NCBI GenBank assembly: GCA_020722065.1
Contig: DYLK01000019.1
Span: forward strand, 1-51,190
Length of the DNA: 51,190 nucleotides
From: Melioribacter roseus
GTDB lineage: Bacteria > Bacteroidota > Ignavibacteria > Ignavibacteriales > Melioribacteraceae
Direction of reading: 5' to 3'
Shown here: positions 3,266-11,181 of the stretch, in pieces
How positions within the stretch are numbered: position 1 is the stretch's first letter
Layout of the letters: each line of letters starts with the position of its first letter
The notes under the pieces: model-generated
Told to the model about the DNA's origin: nothing
What the model saw: only the letters and a program-made list of their open reading frames with translations
Database searches by the model: none
Program-made: the position numbers and the translations under genes

Positions 3266-4110
3266 TGGGCTGGTTTAGTAAATCAAAAGGTCAACTCGAC
3301 CCAAAGACAAAAAAGATTGAAGTTCCTGATGGAAAATGGCTTAAATGTCCTTCTTGCGACGAAATTATACATATCAAAACAATTGAAATAAATTCATGGG
3401 TTTGCCCAAAATGTGATTACCACATTAGAATTGGAAGCAATGATTATATTCAAATTTTGATTGATCCGAAAACATTTCGCGAAATAAATTCTTCTATGAA
3501 ATCTGCCGATCCTTTGCAATTTCGTGATACAAAAAAATACACAGATAGAATTAAATCTTCTATTGCATCAACTGGCTTGAATGATGCTGTAAAAACTGGA
3601 ATTGGAGAAATAAACGGACGAAAAGTTGCTATTGGAATAATGGATTTTGAATTTATTGGCGGAAGTATGGGTTCTGTAGTCGGTGAAAAAATTGCTCGTT
3701 TAATTGATAAAGCACGCGATAGTAAAATTCCATTGATTATTATTTCAAAAAGTGGCGGTGCAAGAATGATGGAAGGAGCTTTTTCGTTAATGCAAATGGC
3801 AAAAACAAGTGCAAAATTGGCTCAACTTGCAAAGAGTAAAATTCCATATTTATCCATTTTAACCGACCCAACTACTGGCGGAACAACTGCAAGTTATGCA
3901 ATGCTTGGTGATATGAATATTGCTGAACCAAATGCTCTGATTGGATTTGCTGGTCCGCGTGTAATCAAACAAACAATTGGCAAAGATTTACCAAAAGGTT
4001 TTCAAAAATCTGAATTTTTAGAAGAACACGGATTTGTTGATTTAATTGTTGACCGTCGTGAACTGAAGTCAAAAATAAGTACGATTTTAGATTATTTATC
4101 AGACAATTAA
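3265..4110 (+). CDS. accD: Acetyl-CoA carboxylase carboxyltransferase subunit beta
   Basis: 281 residues, normal for AccD. The N-terminal zinc ribbon is CPSC...CPKC (about residues 28-51). The crotonase-like carboxyltransferase core follows, with SKSGGARMMEGAFSLMQM, DPTTGGTTASYAMLGD and GFAGPRVIKQTIG, all standard AccD segments. It pairs with AccA to move the carboxyl group from biotin to acetyl-CoA, giving malonyl-CoA for fatty acid synthesis. accA is not in the window. It is the last gene of the tsaB operon and is followed at once by a strong terminator hairpin. Confidence 0.95.
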   Translation: MGWFSKSKGQLDPKTKKIEVPDGKWLKCPSCDEIIHIKTIEINSWVCPKCDYHIRIGSNDYIQILIDPKTFREINSSMKSADPLQFRDTKKYTDRIKSSIASTGLNDAVKTGIGEINGRKVAIGIMDFEFIGGSMGSVVGEKIARLIDKARDSKIPLIIISKSGGARMMEGAFSLMQMAKTSAKLAQLAKSKIPYLSILTDPTTGGTTASYAMLGDMNIAEPNALIGFAGPRVIKQTIGKDLPKGFQKSEFLEEHGFVDLIVDRRELKSKISTILDYLSDN

Positions 4111-6419: not shown

Positions 6420-9400
6420 ATGTCTTTATCAGAAATTAACAACATACTTTTAGCCGGAATTTCGGCAATTGAGGAAAATCAAAAAGATAATCTTGTTGAA
6501 CAAATAACAAAAAATCTTCTCACTTTTGATAACAATGAACTCGGCGAAATTAATTCCCTTCTCTTAAATTTGATAAATAATGGATTTGTTATTCATTTTA
6601 CGAAAGTAATTCCAACCGAAAAGTTTTATGAATTTGGTGAAATTCTTGTTCAAGATGGAAATTCTGATATAAATAGTCAAATAATTCATAACTATCTTGA
6701 TATTCTCCGTAGAAGTGAATTTTTAACTCGAATTTACAATGAAAGGAAATGGGACAAATTAATTGAAAAATTAATTCGTAAAAGCAATTTCAGAGTAAAA
6801 GAATTATTTGAGCAACGTGCTAAATTCTATCAAACAAAACCTTTACTTGTAAATATTGAAGGTGAAAAAATTTTTGAAGAAGATTGGATAAAAGTTCAAA
6901 AGGATGTTGAAAAGTTTTCGAAATCGCTAAAAGTTCTCTTAAATAATTATTCCGAAGAAACAAAAGTTGCCTTTTTGCTCGAAAATAGTAAAGAAATGAT
7001 AAAACTCGACTTGGCTTGTTTAACTTCTGGAATTGTCAATATGATGATTGCATCGAATTCTGTCCCCGAACATATCGAACTCATTCTGAATCAAGCTGAA
7101 GCAAAAGTAATTTTTATTGCAGACGAAAAACAACTTGCAAAGTTAAAAAGTGTGAAAAATAATCTAAAATATCTCGACAAAATTGTGATTATAAATGGCA
7201 CTTCGATTGACGAAAATATTGTGAATTTTGCCGACTTTCTCGATTTATCAAAAAATTACAACCAAATCCAAAGTTTTTACGATTCTAAAATTTACACCGT
7301 TGATGATGTTGCAACAATAATGTACACTTCTGGAACAACTGGAGAACCAAAAGGAATTTTGTTTTCGTATATGAACATTGTTTATAAAAGATTTTGTCGA
7401 GCAATGGCACTTCCTGAAATTGGAGATTCGGATAGATTCTTGGCTTTTTTACCACTTTTTCACACTTTTGGACGATATTTGGAAATGATGGGAACAATTT
7501 TTTGGGGTGCGGAATACGTTTTTATGGAAAATCCATCAGTCGAAGCAATGATAAAAAATATGAATCAGATAAAACCGACTGTTTTTATAAGTATTCCAAA
7601 AAAATGGATTCAACTTTACGAAGAAATTACAGCTCGTGTAAATATTGAACTTGATGACGAAGAAGAAATAAAAGCCGCTGTTGTTGCTGTTACTGGTGGG
7701 AAGTTGCGATTCGGACTTTCGGCTGCTGGTTATCTTCCACCTGATATTTTTATGTTTTTCCAAAGATATAATATTGAGTTGATGAGCGGTTTTGGAATGA
7801 CGGAAGCCACTGGTGGAATTACAATGACGCCAATACATTTATATAAAGAAAATTCACTTGGGAAAGCACTTCCTGGAATTGAGTTAAAACTTGCTGAAGA
7901 TGGTGAACTTTTGATTAAAGGTGCTTATGTAACTTTGGGATATTACAAACGCGATGATTCTTTTGATGAAAATGGATGGCTTCATACTGGCGATGTTATG
8001 GTAAAAGATGAAAAGGATTTCTTTGAAATAGTTGATAGAAAGAAAGAAATCTATAAAAACGTGAAAGGCGAAACAATTGCACCACAAAAAATTGAAAATC
8101 TGTTCCGTGATTTTGAATTTGTAAAACAAGTTTTTCTTGTCGGCGACCACAAATTATTCAACACTGTGCTGATTTTCCCAAATTGGGAATCAAATCTCTT
8201 TAATTCTCATTCATTTTCAAAAAATGAATTGAATGAGATATTTTCATCAGTGATCGTTACTGTAAACACATTTTTAGCCCCGTTTGAACGAATTATCGAT
8301 TTCCGAATTATTGAGCGAGCTTTCGATGAAGCAAATGGAGAACTTACTCCAAAAGGGACTTACAAACGCCGAGTTATAGAAAAAAATTTTGATTCATTAA
8401 TCTCAGAAATGTATCAATCGCAATACACAAAAATTGACTTCGAAAATTACTCAATCCGAATTCCAAACTGGTTTTTACGAGAAAAAGGTAAATTGAGCGG
8501 TGATATCGAATTAATAGAAAACAAACTCAAAATCAAAGGACAGAAGGAAGAATTACTTCTCGAAAGATTTGGAGATAACGAATTTTTGATAGGTAATTTT
8601 TTATATCACATTGAAAATAATAAAATAGAATTTCAGCATTTTTTCACAAACCCAATTTATTGGCTTGGAAATCAAAATCTATTGGAATTTTGCGGAGAAA
8701 ATATTTTTCAATGGTATCGAAATCGCGAACCTGAAAAATATATCGAATTTCTCTCATCAAGAAAGAATATTCTAACAAAACCAGAATTATTAGAAAATGT
8801 TAGAAAACTACATATTGGTGGCGAAAAATCACTCTACGGGTTGAATAATGCAGTTTTGCTACTTCAATCTGAAATTGAAGAGAACGCTTTTGCGGCTTTA
8901 GATTATATAAAATTTTTAAGTAAAGATGAAACAAGTTCACTTTTTAAAATTATCAAAGAAATTCTAAAGCGACCATTAATAACATCAAATATTAATGTAC
9001 GAAGGAAACTTTTGCGTAATGCGATTTATGTTTATCACACAAGCAAATTAGATTGCTTACTTGAACTTTTCTTCAAGCACAATTATGATATTTTGAATGA
9101 AGAAGTAATAAATACGCTAATTGAAGTAAAATCGAATGAAATTCTTCCAATAATCGAAGGATTAATAAACAACACAATTTCAGATTTTGAAAATATCAAA
9201 ATTGAGCTAACACCAATACCAAATTTGTTTCAGTTTTTGAAAAATTACGTAAATTTTCATCCAACAGGCTACCGAACTATACGAAGAATTTTAGTACAAT
9301 ATAAAATTCAAGGCAAAAATTCTGAAATAATTCATCTTGCAACAGAAACTTTACAGGCAATAAAAATTGGTTTCAGAAAGTGGCTCGGGCAAAATCAAAC

Positions 9401-11150
9401 AATTGCAATTGATAATGAAACTGGCGAAGAATACACTTGGCACGACATTTTAATTTTCGAAGAAAATATCCCAGAATCCGACAAAGAAAGAATGATTTTT
9501 GGAATTGTAAACCAACCAATTGTTCGTGAAGCAATATTTTTCTTTTTTAACGGAACAATAGTCCGTTTGAACGATATTTTGCCTGGTGGAATTTGGATTT
9601 CATTTCATAAAGATTTCAAAAATTACCGAGTTTATCGCGTTTCAGTTCAAACAAGATATTTCGGAGCGTTCGATTTTTCGATGATATTGAATATTTCTTT
9701 ACCAAAAGAAGTTGTTATCCGAGAAACAGATTGGCTTATTATCACAAGTTCAAACGCATCTGGACAAATTTTAACCGATAATTATGGTGGATATTGTGAT
9801 TCGTGTGATATTTGGACTGAAGAATACAACCCAAACGAAAACACTTGGCATTTTATTGAAAGAATATTCAGAAAAAATAACAACAAAGATTTTCAGATGG
9901 TTTATCATCTTTGGCCATTTTTTGTTTGGAATGCATCGACTGCAATATTAAACTTTGCAAAATTAACTGATTGGAAATTACGACTTGGCGATACTTCTCC
10001 AACAAATTTTATAATTCCAAAACATGATTATCAAACGGGGACGAGAATTATTACTATTGAATCTAGAAAAGAATTCGTCTCAATTTCTGAACTTTTTACT
10101 GATTTTTATTCTAATTTTGTCGAAAAAACTTTAACCAAATTCCCACAATTATTCCGAAAATCAATTTGGAATCACATTTTTTCGGGAGTAATTTCATCAA
10201 TGGGAGAAGTTGATGGAAAAGCTTTATTACTAAAACTGAAAGATGAAATAGAACAAGACATTAATTTCCCGCAAAAAGAACTTGCTTTAGAAAAATTAAT
10301 AGAATTTATTAATGCTTTAGAAAAAGGCAGTTTTATTCCAAAACGGCTATATTTTGCAATAAAGCGATTTAGAAGATGGAAAGAGTTAAATCCTGAAGCA
10401 TCTATCGAAGCAACTGAGGAAATGCTAAATGAACTTTACTTGAATTATCAATTAAACGAAGTTGAAACTGAATTTAAGGAAACAAGAACAAAATTTTATT
10501 ACGAAACTTGTTTTAATGAATCTTCGAACGAATTACAAAATGAATTGAAAAAAGTAATTCAACTTCAGCATCAAAATAAAATTAAAAGAAAAGAAACATT
10601 AGCGATAATCACAGAAATTAAATCAAATTATGAACTAAATGAAAAAGAAAAGTACTTTTTAACACGAATTAGCTATTCACATCTAAAACCACAAGATGAA
10701 GCTGAAATTCTCAAAATTGCATCTTCTTCTGGGACAAAAGAGAATTTAGTTGTGCAATTTTTTGATTATAATGGAAATCCGTTTTCTATTCGCGCTCCAA
10801 TAAATCCTAAAGAAATTTCCCGTTTACATAAAATATTTCTCGATTCAAGTTTGATGGTCAGTTTTCGCTCCGACCACCAATTTCTTGTTGCAATATCTGA
10901 ACGAGGCTATATTATTGGTGGTTTATTTTATAAACAAATTGATAATTCGATGGTTTATATGGATAAAATTGTCGTTTCAGAAAATTATCGAAAACAAGGA
11001 ATTAGCGATATTTTAATGAAAGAATTCTTTAATCGATTGAAAAATGAGAAGTATGAATATGTTGCAACTGGATTTTTCCGTCCTGAGTATTTTTACAAAT
11101 TTGGTTTCAGTGTCGAGAAAAAATATTCTGGGTTAGTTAAAAAATTATAA
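6420..11150 (+). CDS. AMP-forming acyl-CoA ligase / unknown middle / GNAT acetyltransferase fusion, 1576 aa
   Basis: One uninterrupted frame of 1576 residues. Residues 1-130 are an unrecognised helical leader. Residues about 140-690 form an AMP-dependent synthetase resembling long-chain acyl-CoA ligases: P-loop TSGTTGEPKG (303-312), GFGMTEATGG near 457, HTGDV near 521, and a DRKKEIYK hinge near 540. At the C-terminal catalytic position the text is LTPKGTYKRR. An ungapped comparison with FadD-type LTPxxKLKR puts T647 where the adenylation lysine normally sits. Residues about 790-1000 look like helical repeats. Near 1190 GDTSPTN (D1191, N1196) recalls the catalytic loop of kinase or aminoglycoside-phosphotransferase folds, with no clear DFG. 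Residues about 1440-1576 are a GNAT domain (motif RKQGIS near 1524). It is monocistronic. Ligase and GNAT calls are confident; the middle is not assigned. Confidence 0.85.
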   Translation: MSLSEINNILLAGISAIEENQKDNLVEQITKNLLTFDNNELGEINSLLLNLINNGFVIHFTKVIPTEKFYEFGEILVQDGNSDINSQIIHNYLDILRRSEFLTRIYNERKWDKLIEKLIRKSNFRVKELFEQRAKFYQTKPLLVNIEGEKIFEEDWIKVQKDVEKFSKSLKVLLNNYSEETKVAFLLENSKEMIKLDLACLTSGIVNMMIASNSVPEHIELILNQAEAKVIFIADEKQLAKLKSVKNNLKYLDKIVIINGTSIDENIVNFADFLDLSKNYNQIQSFYDSKIYTVDDVATIMYTSGTTGEPKGILFSYMNIVYKRFCRAMALPEIGDSDRFLAFLPLFHTFGRYLEMMGTIFWGAEYVFMENPSVEAMIKNMNQIKPTVFISIPKKWIQLYEEITARVNIELDDEEEIKAAVVAVTGGKLRFGLSAAGYLPPDIFMFFQRYNIELMSGFGMTEATGGITMTPIHLYKENSLGKALPGIELKLAEDGELLIKGAYVTLGYYKRDDSFDENGWLHTGDVMVKDEKDFFEIVDRKKEIYKNVKGETIAPQKIENLFRDFEFVKQVFLVGDHKLFNTVLIFPNWESNLFNSHSFSKNELNEIFSSVIVTVNTFLAPFERIIDFRIIERAFDEANGELTPKGTYKRRVIEKNFDSLISEMYQSQYTKIDFENYSIRIPNWFLREKGKLSGDIELIENKLKIKGQKEELLLERFGDNEFLIGNFLYHIENNKIEFQHFFTNPIYWLGNQNLLEFCGENIFQWYRNREPEKYIEFLSSRKNILTKPELLENVRKLHIGGEKSLYGLNNAVLLLQSEIEENAFAALDYIKFLSKDETSSLFKIIKEILKRPLITSNINVRRKLLRNAIYVYHTSKLDCLLELFFKHNYDILNEEVINTLIEVKSNEILPIIEGLINNTISDFENIKIELTPIPNLFQFLKNYVNFHPTGYRTIRRILVQYKIQGKNSEIIHLATETLQAIKIGFRKWLGQNQTIAIDNETGEEYTWHDILIFEENIPESDKERMIFGIVNQPIVREAIFFFFNGTIVRLNDILPGGIWISFHKDFKNYRVYRVSVQTRYFGAFDFSMILNISLPKEVVIRETDWLIITSSNASGQILTDNYGGYCDSCDIWTEEYNPNENTWHFIERIFRKNNNKDFQMVYHLWPFFVWNASTAILNFAKLTDWKLRLGDTSPTNFIIPKHDYQTGTRIITIESRKEFVSISELFTDFYSNFVEKTLTKFPQLFRKSIWNHIFSGVISSMGEVDGKALLLKLKDEIEQDINFPQKELALEKLIEFINALEKGSFIPKRLYFAIKRFRRWKELNPEASIEATEEMLNELYLNYQLNEVETEFKETRTKFYYETCFNESSNELQNELKKVIQLQHQNKIKRKETLAIITEIKSNYELNEKEKYFLTRISYSHLKPQDEAEILKIASSSGTKENLVVQFFDYNGNPFSIRAPINPKEISRLHKIFLDSSLMVSFRSDHQFLVAISERGYIIGGLFYKQIDNSMVYMDKIVVSENYRKQGISDILMKEFFNRLKNEKYEYVATGFFRPEYFYKFGFSVEKKYSGLVKKL

Positions 11151-11151
11151 A

Positions 11152-11181
11152 AAAAACGGCAAAATCATATTTGCCGTTTTT
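11152..11181 (+). terminator. Bidirectional terminator between the fusion gene and the nifJ pair
   Basis: AAAAACGGCAAA (11152-11163) pairs perfectly with TTTGCCGTTTTT (11170-11181) around a 6-nt loop. It lies 1 nt after the fusion gene stop and about 20 nt from the convergent dihydroorotate-dehydrogenase-like gene. The A and T flanks suit both directions. Confidence 0.88.

Follow-up and report, generated by a model that had tools for sequence, protein, structure and literature searches.

This locus of Melioribacter roseus raises the question of why a single open reading frame joins an acyl ligase, a long middle region and a GNAT acetyltransferase, and what such a protein might do. The window, i.e., the entire stretch of DNA analyzed here, spans 51,190 nucleotides (contig DYLK01000019.1, positions 1 to 51,190); within it, the fusion gene starts with ATG and runs through 1576 codons with zero internal stops. 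Its parts follow the order AMP-forming acyl ligase, small beta domain, helical repeat, kinase-like fold, helical extension and GNAT domain (Table 1), preceded by an N-terminal extension with a mean majority residue of 0.32 in an alignment of 97 sequences (98 candidates minus L201, which is short). An earlier, sequence-only reading of this DNA took the frame for one polypeptide and named two genes with a missed stop as the alternative. The latter is ruled out because unbroken frames of approximately 1500-1650 aa recur in independent assemblies. The dN/dS values against the closest relative, L058, are 0.05-0.24 in every part of the gene and 0.10 overall; the 1576-aa frame is genuine and evolves under purifying selection. 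Silent divergence from the same relative is uneven, with pS of 0.19-0.29 in positions 6420-8423 (the N-terminal extension and the ligase) versus 0.46-0.60 in the rest, and the lower values across the first 2 kb suggest recombination there.

Table 1. Features of the fusion gene and its 3' flank (positions refer to the window)
Feature	Positions	Strand	Basis and remarks
Whole fusion gene	6420..11150	+	1576 aa; ORF listing and relatives of similar length
N-terminal extension, residues 1-118	6420..6773	+	Poorly conserved
AMP-forming acyl ligase, residues 119-668	6774..8423	+	Pfam AMP-binding and AMP-binding_C_3; NCBIfam long-chain ligase models
A10-type motif TPKGTYKR, residues 643-650	8346..8369	+	Alignment
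Small beta domain, residues 676-780	8445..8759	+	Predicted model and conservation; no Pfam match
Helical repeat region, residues ~788-989	8781..9386	+	Predicted model; 11 helices
Kinase-like fold, residues ~1006-1300	9435..10319	+	Predicted model; Foldseek; VIA Z 12.5 to 10.1
Degenerate catalytic loop LGDTSPTN, residues 1189-1196	9984..10007	+	Alignment
Residue 1212, inferred DFG-Asp position	10053..10055	+	S 91, T 4, E 1, A 1 of 97
Helical extension, residues 1301-1425	10320..10694	+	R1356 and T1363 invariant; predicted model
GNAT domain, residues 1426-1576	10695..11147	+	Pfam; VIA Z; profile match to GCN5
GNAT motif A, R1524-x-x-G1527-x-S1529	10989..11006	+	Alignment; definition per PMC8556138
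Terminator-like stem between convergent genes	11152..11181	.	12-pair stem; scored on minus strand only

The gene had also been credited with a terminator of its own and with the absence of any operon partner, and each of these claims holds in part. The 12-pair stem is indeed present, but the prediction scores it for the convergent, minus-strand gene only; since its A5/T5 ends are symmetrical, it may serve both genes. The long ORFs on either side of the fusion gene are both on the minus strand, and there is no operon partner in the window; in many relatives, however, a citrate synthase gene on the same strand lies directly upstream.

The fusion spans several phyla. Matches to the C-terminal 890 residues are found in 39 of 58 related genomes (window genome included), mostly in open frames of approximately 1500-1650 aa, and none are found in the other 19. 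A contig scan confirmed 102 stretches, the best 80 of which were taken as loci; according to the submitters' record titles, these come from Ignavibacteriota, Calditrichota, KSB1, Gemmatimonadota, Acidobacteriota and Planctomycetota, with one or few rows each from Bacteroidetes, Chlorobiota, Deferribacteres and Caldisericaceae. When residues 991-1423 are used as the query, 15 of 296 genomes in the phylum group of the window match, each in a frame of 1515-1638 aa, as do 26 of 297 genomes of the Acidobacteriota group, with 23 of these 26 in frames of at least 1525 aa. Of the remaining three frames, those of 1344 and 1283 aa are truncated by contig ends; the third, L201 (838 aa), shares its contig with L137, is truncated on one side, and its matches fall in more than one frame. 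Apart from contig-cut copies, the exceptions to the long unbroken frame are L087, with an internal stop, and L093, L111 and L137, with matches split over frames; these four are either assembly errors or decayed genes. In the FastTree tree of 72 rows, a main clade is separated from a divergent subfamily, and the window protein aligns with a member of the latter, L196, from residue 66 on with 26 % identity.

The sequence-only reading had proposed to look for the same fusion and for split versions of it. Full-length relatives were found in several phyla, together with one ligase-less form. This form, encoded in L136 (4212-6611; Acidobacteriota), is a 799-aa protein that consists of the helical, kinase-like and GNAT parts, without the ligase or the beta domain; among these parts, Pfam recognizes only the GNAT domain. 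The ORF preceding this gene (3288-4019) is complete and shows no match to the fusion; when the rest of the genome is compared with the ligase half, the longer matches have 30-38 % identity and mostly lie in frames of 521-727 aa, as for ordinary ligases. Given this natural helical-kinase-GNAT protein, a single case from a metagenome bin, the effector part can occur separately from the ligase.

Judging from its motifs, the ligase domain is an acyl ligase of the ANL superfamily. The FadD-like, AMP-forming assignment is borne out by Pfam matches to AMP-binding (residues 132-509, E 1.5e-57, 195.6 bits against a cut-off of 29.9) and AMP-binding_C_3 (residues 548-667, E 3.8e-13, 50.3 bits against 20.8), and no NDP-forming synthetase domain is found in the fusion protein by Pfam at E up to 1. 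The top NCBIfam matches are long-chain acyl-CoA ligase models, with the best scores for PRK06187 and FadD11; none of the best 25 of 99 matches is above the cut-off of its own model. Thus, the fusion shares with the FadD/ACSL long-chain ligases both Pfam domains and the best-scoring models but differs from them in scoring far under the model cut-offs, in a changed A10 site and in the presence of about 900 further residues. The core motifs, TSGTTGxPKG, GxTE, TGD and DRxKE, are kept: K311, G459, E462, G524, D525, D539, R540 and E559 are found in all 97 aligned sequences, G305 in 96 (with one gap) and T307 in 95. The exception is the A10-type site TPKGTYKR, where a catalytic Lys is expected at the position of Thr647. 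This position is Thr in 80 and Ser in 17 of the 97 sequences and never Lys, whereas Lys645, two residues earlier, is invariant. A stand-alone ligase of the same genome, L002, shows the identical shift. Because K645 is invariant and this paralogue shares the shift, we do not claim that the ligase is dead on account of the absent A10 Lys.

The A10 site bears on the possibility, raised by the sequence-only reading along with direct transfer of the activated acyl group, that the protein regulates itself in cis, with the GNAT domain acylating the ligase of its own chain much as Pat acts on Acs in trans. The presence of a ligase and a GNAT domain in one chain would fit such a mechanism, as would the invariant Lys645 near the A10 site, but the ligase-less form retains its GNAT domain and the canonical position never carries the required Lys, so that self-acylation appears improbable. 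In particular, Pat-like acylation of the A10 lysine itself is weakened, because that position is Thr or Ser throughout, although the invariant K645 two residues before it leaves such an acylation conceivable.

The region between the ligase and the GNAT domain was suspected to contain two or more undescribed domains, and several domains are indeed found there, all without a Pfam match. In the fusion protein, Pfam yields nothing for this region beyond a chance-level hit to DUF3574 (E 0.05-0.15, below the cut-off); in 68 aligned sequences, residues 991-1423 give only scattered matches, none with an E below 0.005 and none shared by more than 4 of the 68, and other middle regions of relatives were searched in L123, L136 and L196. 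Structure prediction and Foldseek comparison, the checks suggested for the middle, gave confident models and a central domain that matches kinases. The AlphaFold model of residues 676-1576, built with 68 alignment rows, has a mean pLDDT of 90.0 and pTM of 0.78, and that of residues 991-1423 reaches 93.2 and 0.89, respectively. The beta domain has conserved residues P682, W684, G725, W748, G750 and N751. The expected helical region is confidently modeled, and the arrangement of its helices suggests a HEAT/ARM-like repeat.

For the central domain, Foldseek returns 57 matches at E <= 0.001, and those among the matches listed are kinases. The 50 VIA matches listed are consistently kinases as well, with Z from 12.5 to 10.1 and, among the matches listed, identities of 6-14 %; the best is PsiK (Z 12.5 over 236 residues, 4.1 A), and Bud32 (12.2), choline kinase (11.9), methylthioribose kinase (11.3) and RIO1 (10.8) are also found. 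For mostly helical models, a Z below ~13 may carry little meaning, and here the values are 10-12.5; nevertheless, the kinase fold is accepted because the listed matches agree and cover 236 residues. The models therefore support a two-lobed kinase-like fold for this domain. The motif GDxxxxN (D1191, N1196), which had been compared to the catalytic loops of kinases or phosphotransferases, is present as described, and the fold is of the kinase type, but an active loop is unsupported. D1191 is Asp in only 38 of the 97 sequences (Asn in 21, Glu in 15) and is already Asn in L058. Residue 1212, which corresponds to the DFG Asp according to the order of secondary-structure elements in the model rather than to superposed coordinates, is never Asp. 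Given the variability of the former and the complete loss of Asp at the latter, the domain is probably a pseudokinase. The similarity to PsiK, Bud32/PRPK, choline kinase, methylthioribose kinase and RIO1 is thus one of fold, and the fusion differs from such kinases in the variable catalytic-loop Asp, the lost inferred DFG Asp and the extra helical extension.

The suggestion of an active kinase was accordingly set aside: the fold is accepted, but activity is unlikely. An unusual phosphotransferase or AMP-transferring enzyme could still be imagined on the basis of the confidently predicted fold and the frequent N1196 (78 of 97) and D1203 (86 of 97); with the two Asp positions in the state described, such an activity appears highly improbable. 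R1356 and T1363 are found in 97 of 97 sequences, and R1073 and W1320 in 95 each. Retention of these residues would fit a kinase-like domain kept for binding or scaffolding.

With the whole C-terminal model as the query, the first Foldseek match is Vps34 (E 5e-5 over 622 columns), which is weak, with TM of 0.20-0.28 and rmsd of 18 A; the likeness is confined to the arrangement of a helical repeat followed by a kinase, and this comparison gives no evidence of a common origin with the PI3-kinase Vps34/Tra1. The eukaryotic SAGA complex pairs Tra1 with Gcn5, and the order helical repeat-pseudokinase-GNAT would parallel that pairing, by analogy only.

The C-terminal GNAT domain, also predicted from the sequence, is confirmed by Pfam (residues 1482-1563, E 1.8e-6), by fold matches with VIA Z of 15.3 to E. 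coli YhbS (4rs2) and 15.1 to Tetrahymena GCN5 (1qsn), and by a profile match to GCN5 (E 1.5e-4). Motif A, given as R/Q-x-x-G-x-G/A in PMC8556138, is matched loosely, with Ser at the third position in the window protein. Among the 97 sequences, R1524 is found in 82 and G1527 in 91, and the third position is Ser in 57, Ala in 20 and Gly in 17. The position aligned with the catalytic Glu of Tetrahymena GCN5 is Tyr in the window protein and mostly His in relatives. Two positions after it, residue 1515 is acidic in 96 of 97 sequences, the other one having a gap.

The most frequent neighbor family of the fusion in relatives is citrate synthase (37 loci). The one such protein scanned against NCBIfam, encoded in L066, belongs to the eukaryotic (Si) type, scoring 750 bits with PRK09569 (above the cut-off) and 603 bits with TIGR01793 (just under the cut-off of 620). 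With this protein as a tblastn query against the 80 loci, citrate synthase is found at most 1 kb from the fusion in 36 of 80, in three arrangements: in 27 loci it lies upstream on the strand of the fusion, in 6 it lies downstream on the other strand and in 3 it lies downstream on the strand of the fusion. Among the other main-clade loci, it lies farther off in 5 of 80 and is not found in 39 of 80, a number of which are near contig ends. When only the 48 loci with at least 2 kb on both sides are considered, citrate synthase is within 1 kb in 28, farther away in 3 and not found in 17. Four of 10 further loci from the Acidobacteriota group have citrate synthase downstream on the opposite strand; two of these four are fragments at a contig end, and L181 repeats the already counted contig L127. 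As for other families within four ORFs (72 loci with neighbors), none common to both large clades occurs in more than 1-2 loci on the Gemmatimonadota/Acidobacteriota side. In L064, L066, L069, L073 and other Ignavibacteriota-type loci, citrate synthase and the fusion are embedded in a conserved block, with a family found in 19 loci before them and families found in 17, 15 and 14 loci after them; judging from sequence, these appear to be squalene/hopanoid-like, CTP synthase-like, TPR and purine-related genes, respectively.

The association is limited in several respects. In the divergent subfamily, citrate synthase is a neighbor in none of the 21 loci, nor in any of the 16 with 2 kb flanks, and no common partner is found in more than 4 of the 21. 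Two neighbor types occur in 3-4 of these 21 loci each (L189, L191-L194) and, judging from sequence, are presumably parts of a B12-dependent mutase and a GntR-type regulator. The only citrate synthase of the window genome is encoded on another contig; among the 58 relatives, this type of citrate synthase also occurs in genomes lacking a fusion match, and in 4 of 8 genomes with a divergent fusion, the only citrate synthase is distant (32-34 % identity). A comparison of citrate synthases from 35 fusion loci with 9 close and 4 more distant ones from genomes lacking a fusion match gave no clear case of a lysine that tracks the fusion; the largest internal contrast, K287, is present in 63 % of fusion loci versus 22 % of the close nine, yet in 75 % of the distant four.

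Taken together, the full-length relatives, the purifying selection, the preserved ligase and GNAT motifs, the kinase fold with its degraded catalytic residues, the adjoining citrate synthase, the ligase-less form and the presence of a sirtuin gene in the window genome lead us to favor, tentatively and at somewhat less than an even chance, a conserved multidomain protein N-acetyl- or acyltransferase controlled by its ligase. Under this scenario, the ligase domain would sense an acyl substrate or make acyl-CoA, the helical repeat and pseudokinase would serve as a scaffold and allosteric relay that couples the ligase to the GNAT domain, and the latter would acylate lysines on a partner protein. 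In the main clade, this partner might be citrate synthase or a metabolically nearby enzyme, in which case the fusion could perhaps tune how much acetyl-CoA enters the TCA cycle. The lack of a citrate synthase link in the divergent subfamily, in 39 of 80 main-clade loci and in the window genome, the lack of a citrate synthase lysine that clearly tracks the fusion, and the Tyr at the GCN5 Glu position speak against this reading. A bolder version, in which an ancient bacterial one-chain machine makes or senses the acyl donor with its ligase, recruits the target with its scaffold and marks citrate synthase with a Gcn5-like GNAT domain, thereby controlling how acetyl-CoA enters the TCA cycle, is improbable in this full form.

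Two other functions have to be weighed against the favored one. The fusion could be a biosynthetic N-acyltransferase, with the ligase activating a fatty or other organic acid, the GNAT domain passing the acyl group on to a small amine or lipid, and the middle being purely structural. The intact ligase motifs, the relationship to long-chain acyl-CoA ligases and the GNAT motif retained in most sequences agree with this option, which we consider unlikely but the more serious of the two: the neighbors show no biosynthetic cluster, the recurrent ones being citrate synthase and the squalene/hopanoid-, CTP synthase- and purine-like genes (the latter labels judged from sequence), and a conserved middle of ~750 residues would be unusual for such a role. 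Alternatively, the ligase, kinase-like and GNAT domains could all be ligand-binding modules of a non-catalytic sensor of acyl-CoA or acyl-AMP that regulates enzymes, citrate synthase or others, through binding. Degraded kinase residues, the Thr or Ser at the A10 Lys position in 97 of 97 sequences and the citrate synthase neighborhood are compatible with such a sensor; however, the remaining ligase motif residues are invariant, GNAT motif A is mostly kept and the stand-alone ligase L002 has the identical A10 shift, so we regard it as rather unlikely.

An acyltransferase controlled by a ligase would resemble a known class of enzymes. According to PMC8556138, bacterial GNAT acetyltransferases fall into five domain types; types I and II, represented by PatZ/YfiQ, SePat and SlPatA, are protein acetyltransferases that combine a GNAT domain with a large acyl-CoA synthetase-type domain in one chain, and in type I (Pat), the synthetase part is N-terminal, as it is in the fusion. 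The synthetase domain of Pat is an inactive, NDP-forming one that binds acetyl-CoA and, by the same account (PMC8556138), probably tunes the GNAT domain, whereas the fusion has an AMP-forming ligase with conserved motifs and adds the beta domain, the helical repeat and the kinase-like fold. By analogy, the fusion would be a Pat counterpart with an AMP-forming domain. The combination of a synthetase-type domain with GNAT is thus already known; the AMP-forming synthetase, the helical repeat and the pseudokinase are what differs. Among the open-licence PMC papers listed in literature searches, none appears, by its title and the beginning of its abstract, to deal with a ligase-pseudokinase-GNAT fusion.

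Much of the conserved, ~750-residue region that has no Pfam match in the fusion protein is assigned a fold by the present analysis. If the favored interpretation is correct, a type with an AMP-forming ligase, complete with a built-in pseudokinase and helical scaffold, would be added to the five GNAT types. In Melioribacter roseus, acetyl-CoA can be either converted to acetate or oxidized through the TCA cycle, as stated in PMC3534657; because the organism has both options, citrate synthase would be a reasonable place to exert control. If the interpretation holds, citrate synthase would be a concrete candidate target at the point where fermentation to acetate and respiration diverge in facultative anaerobes like Melioribacter, and the fusion may represent a new kind of metabolic regulator.
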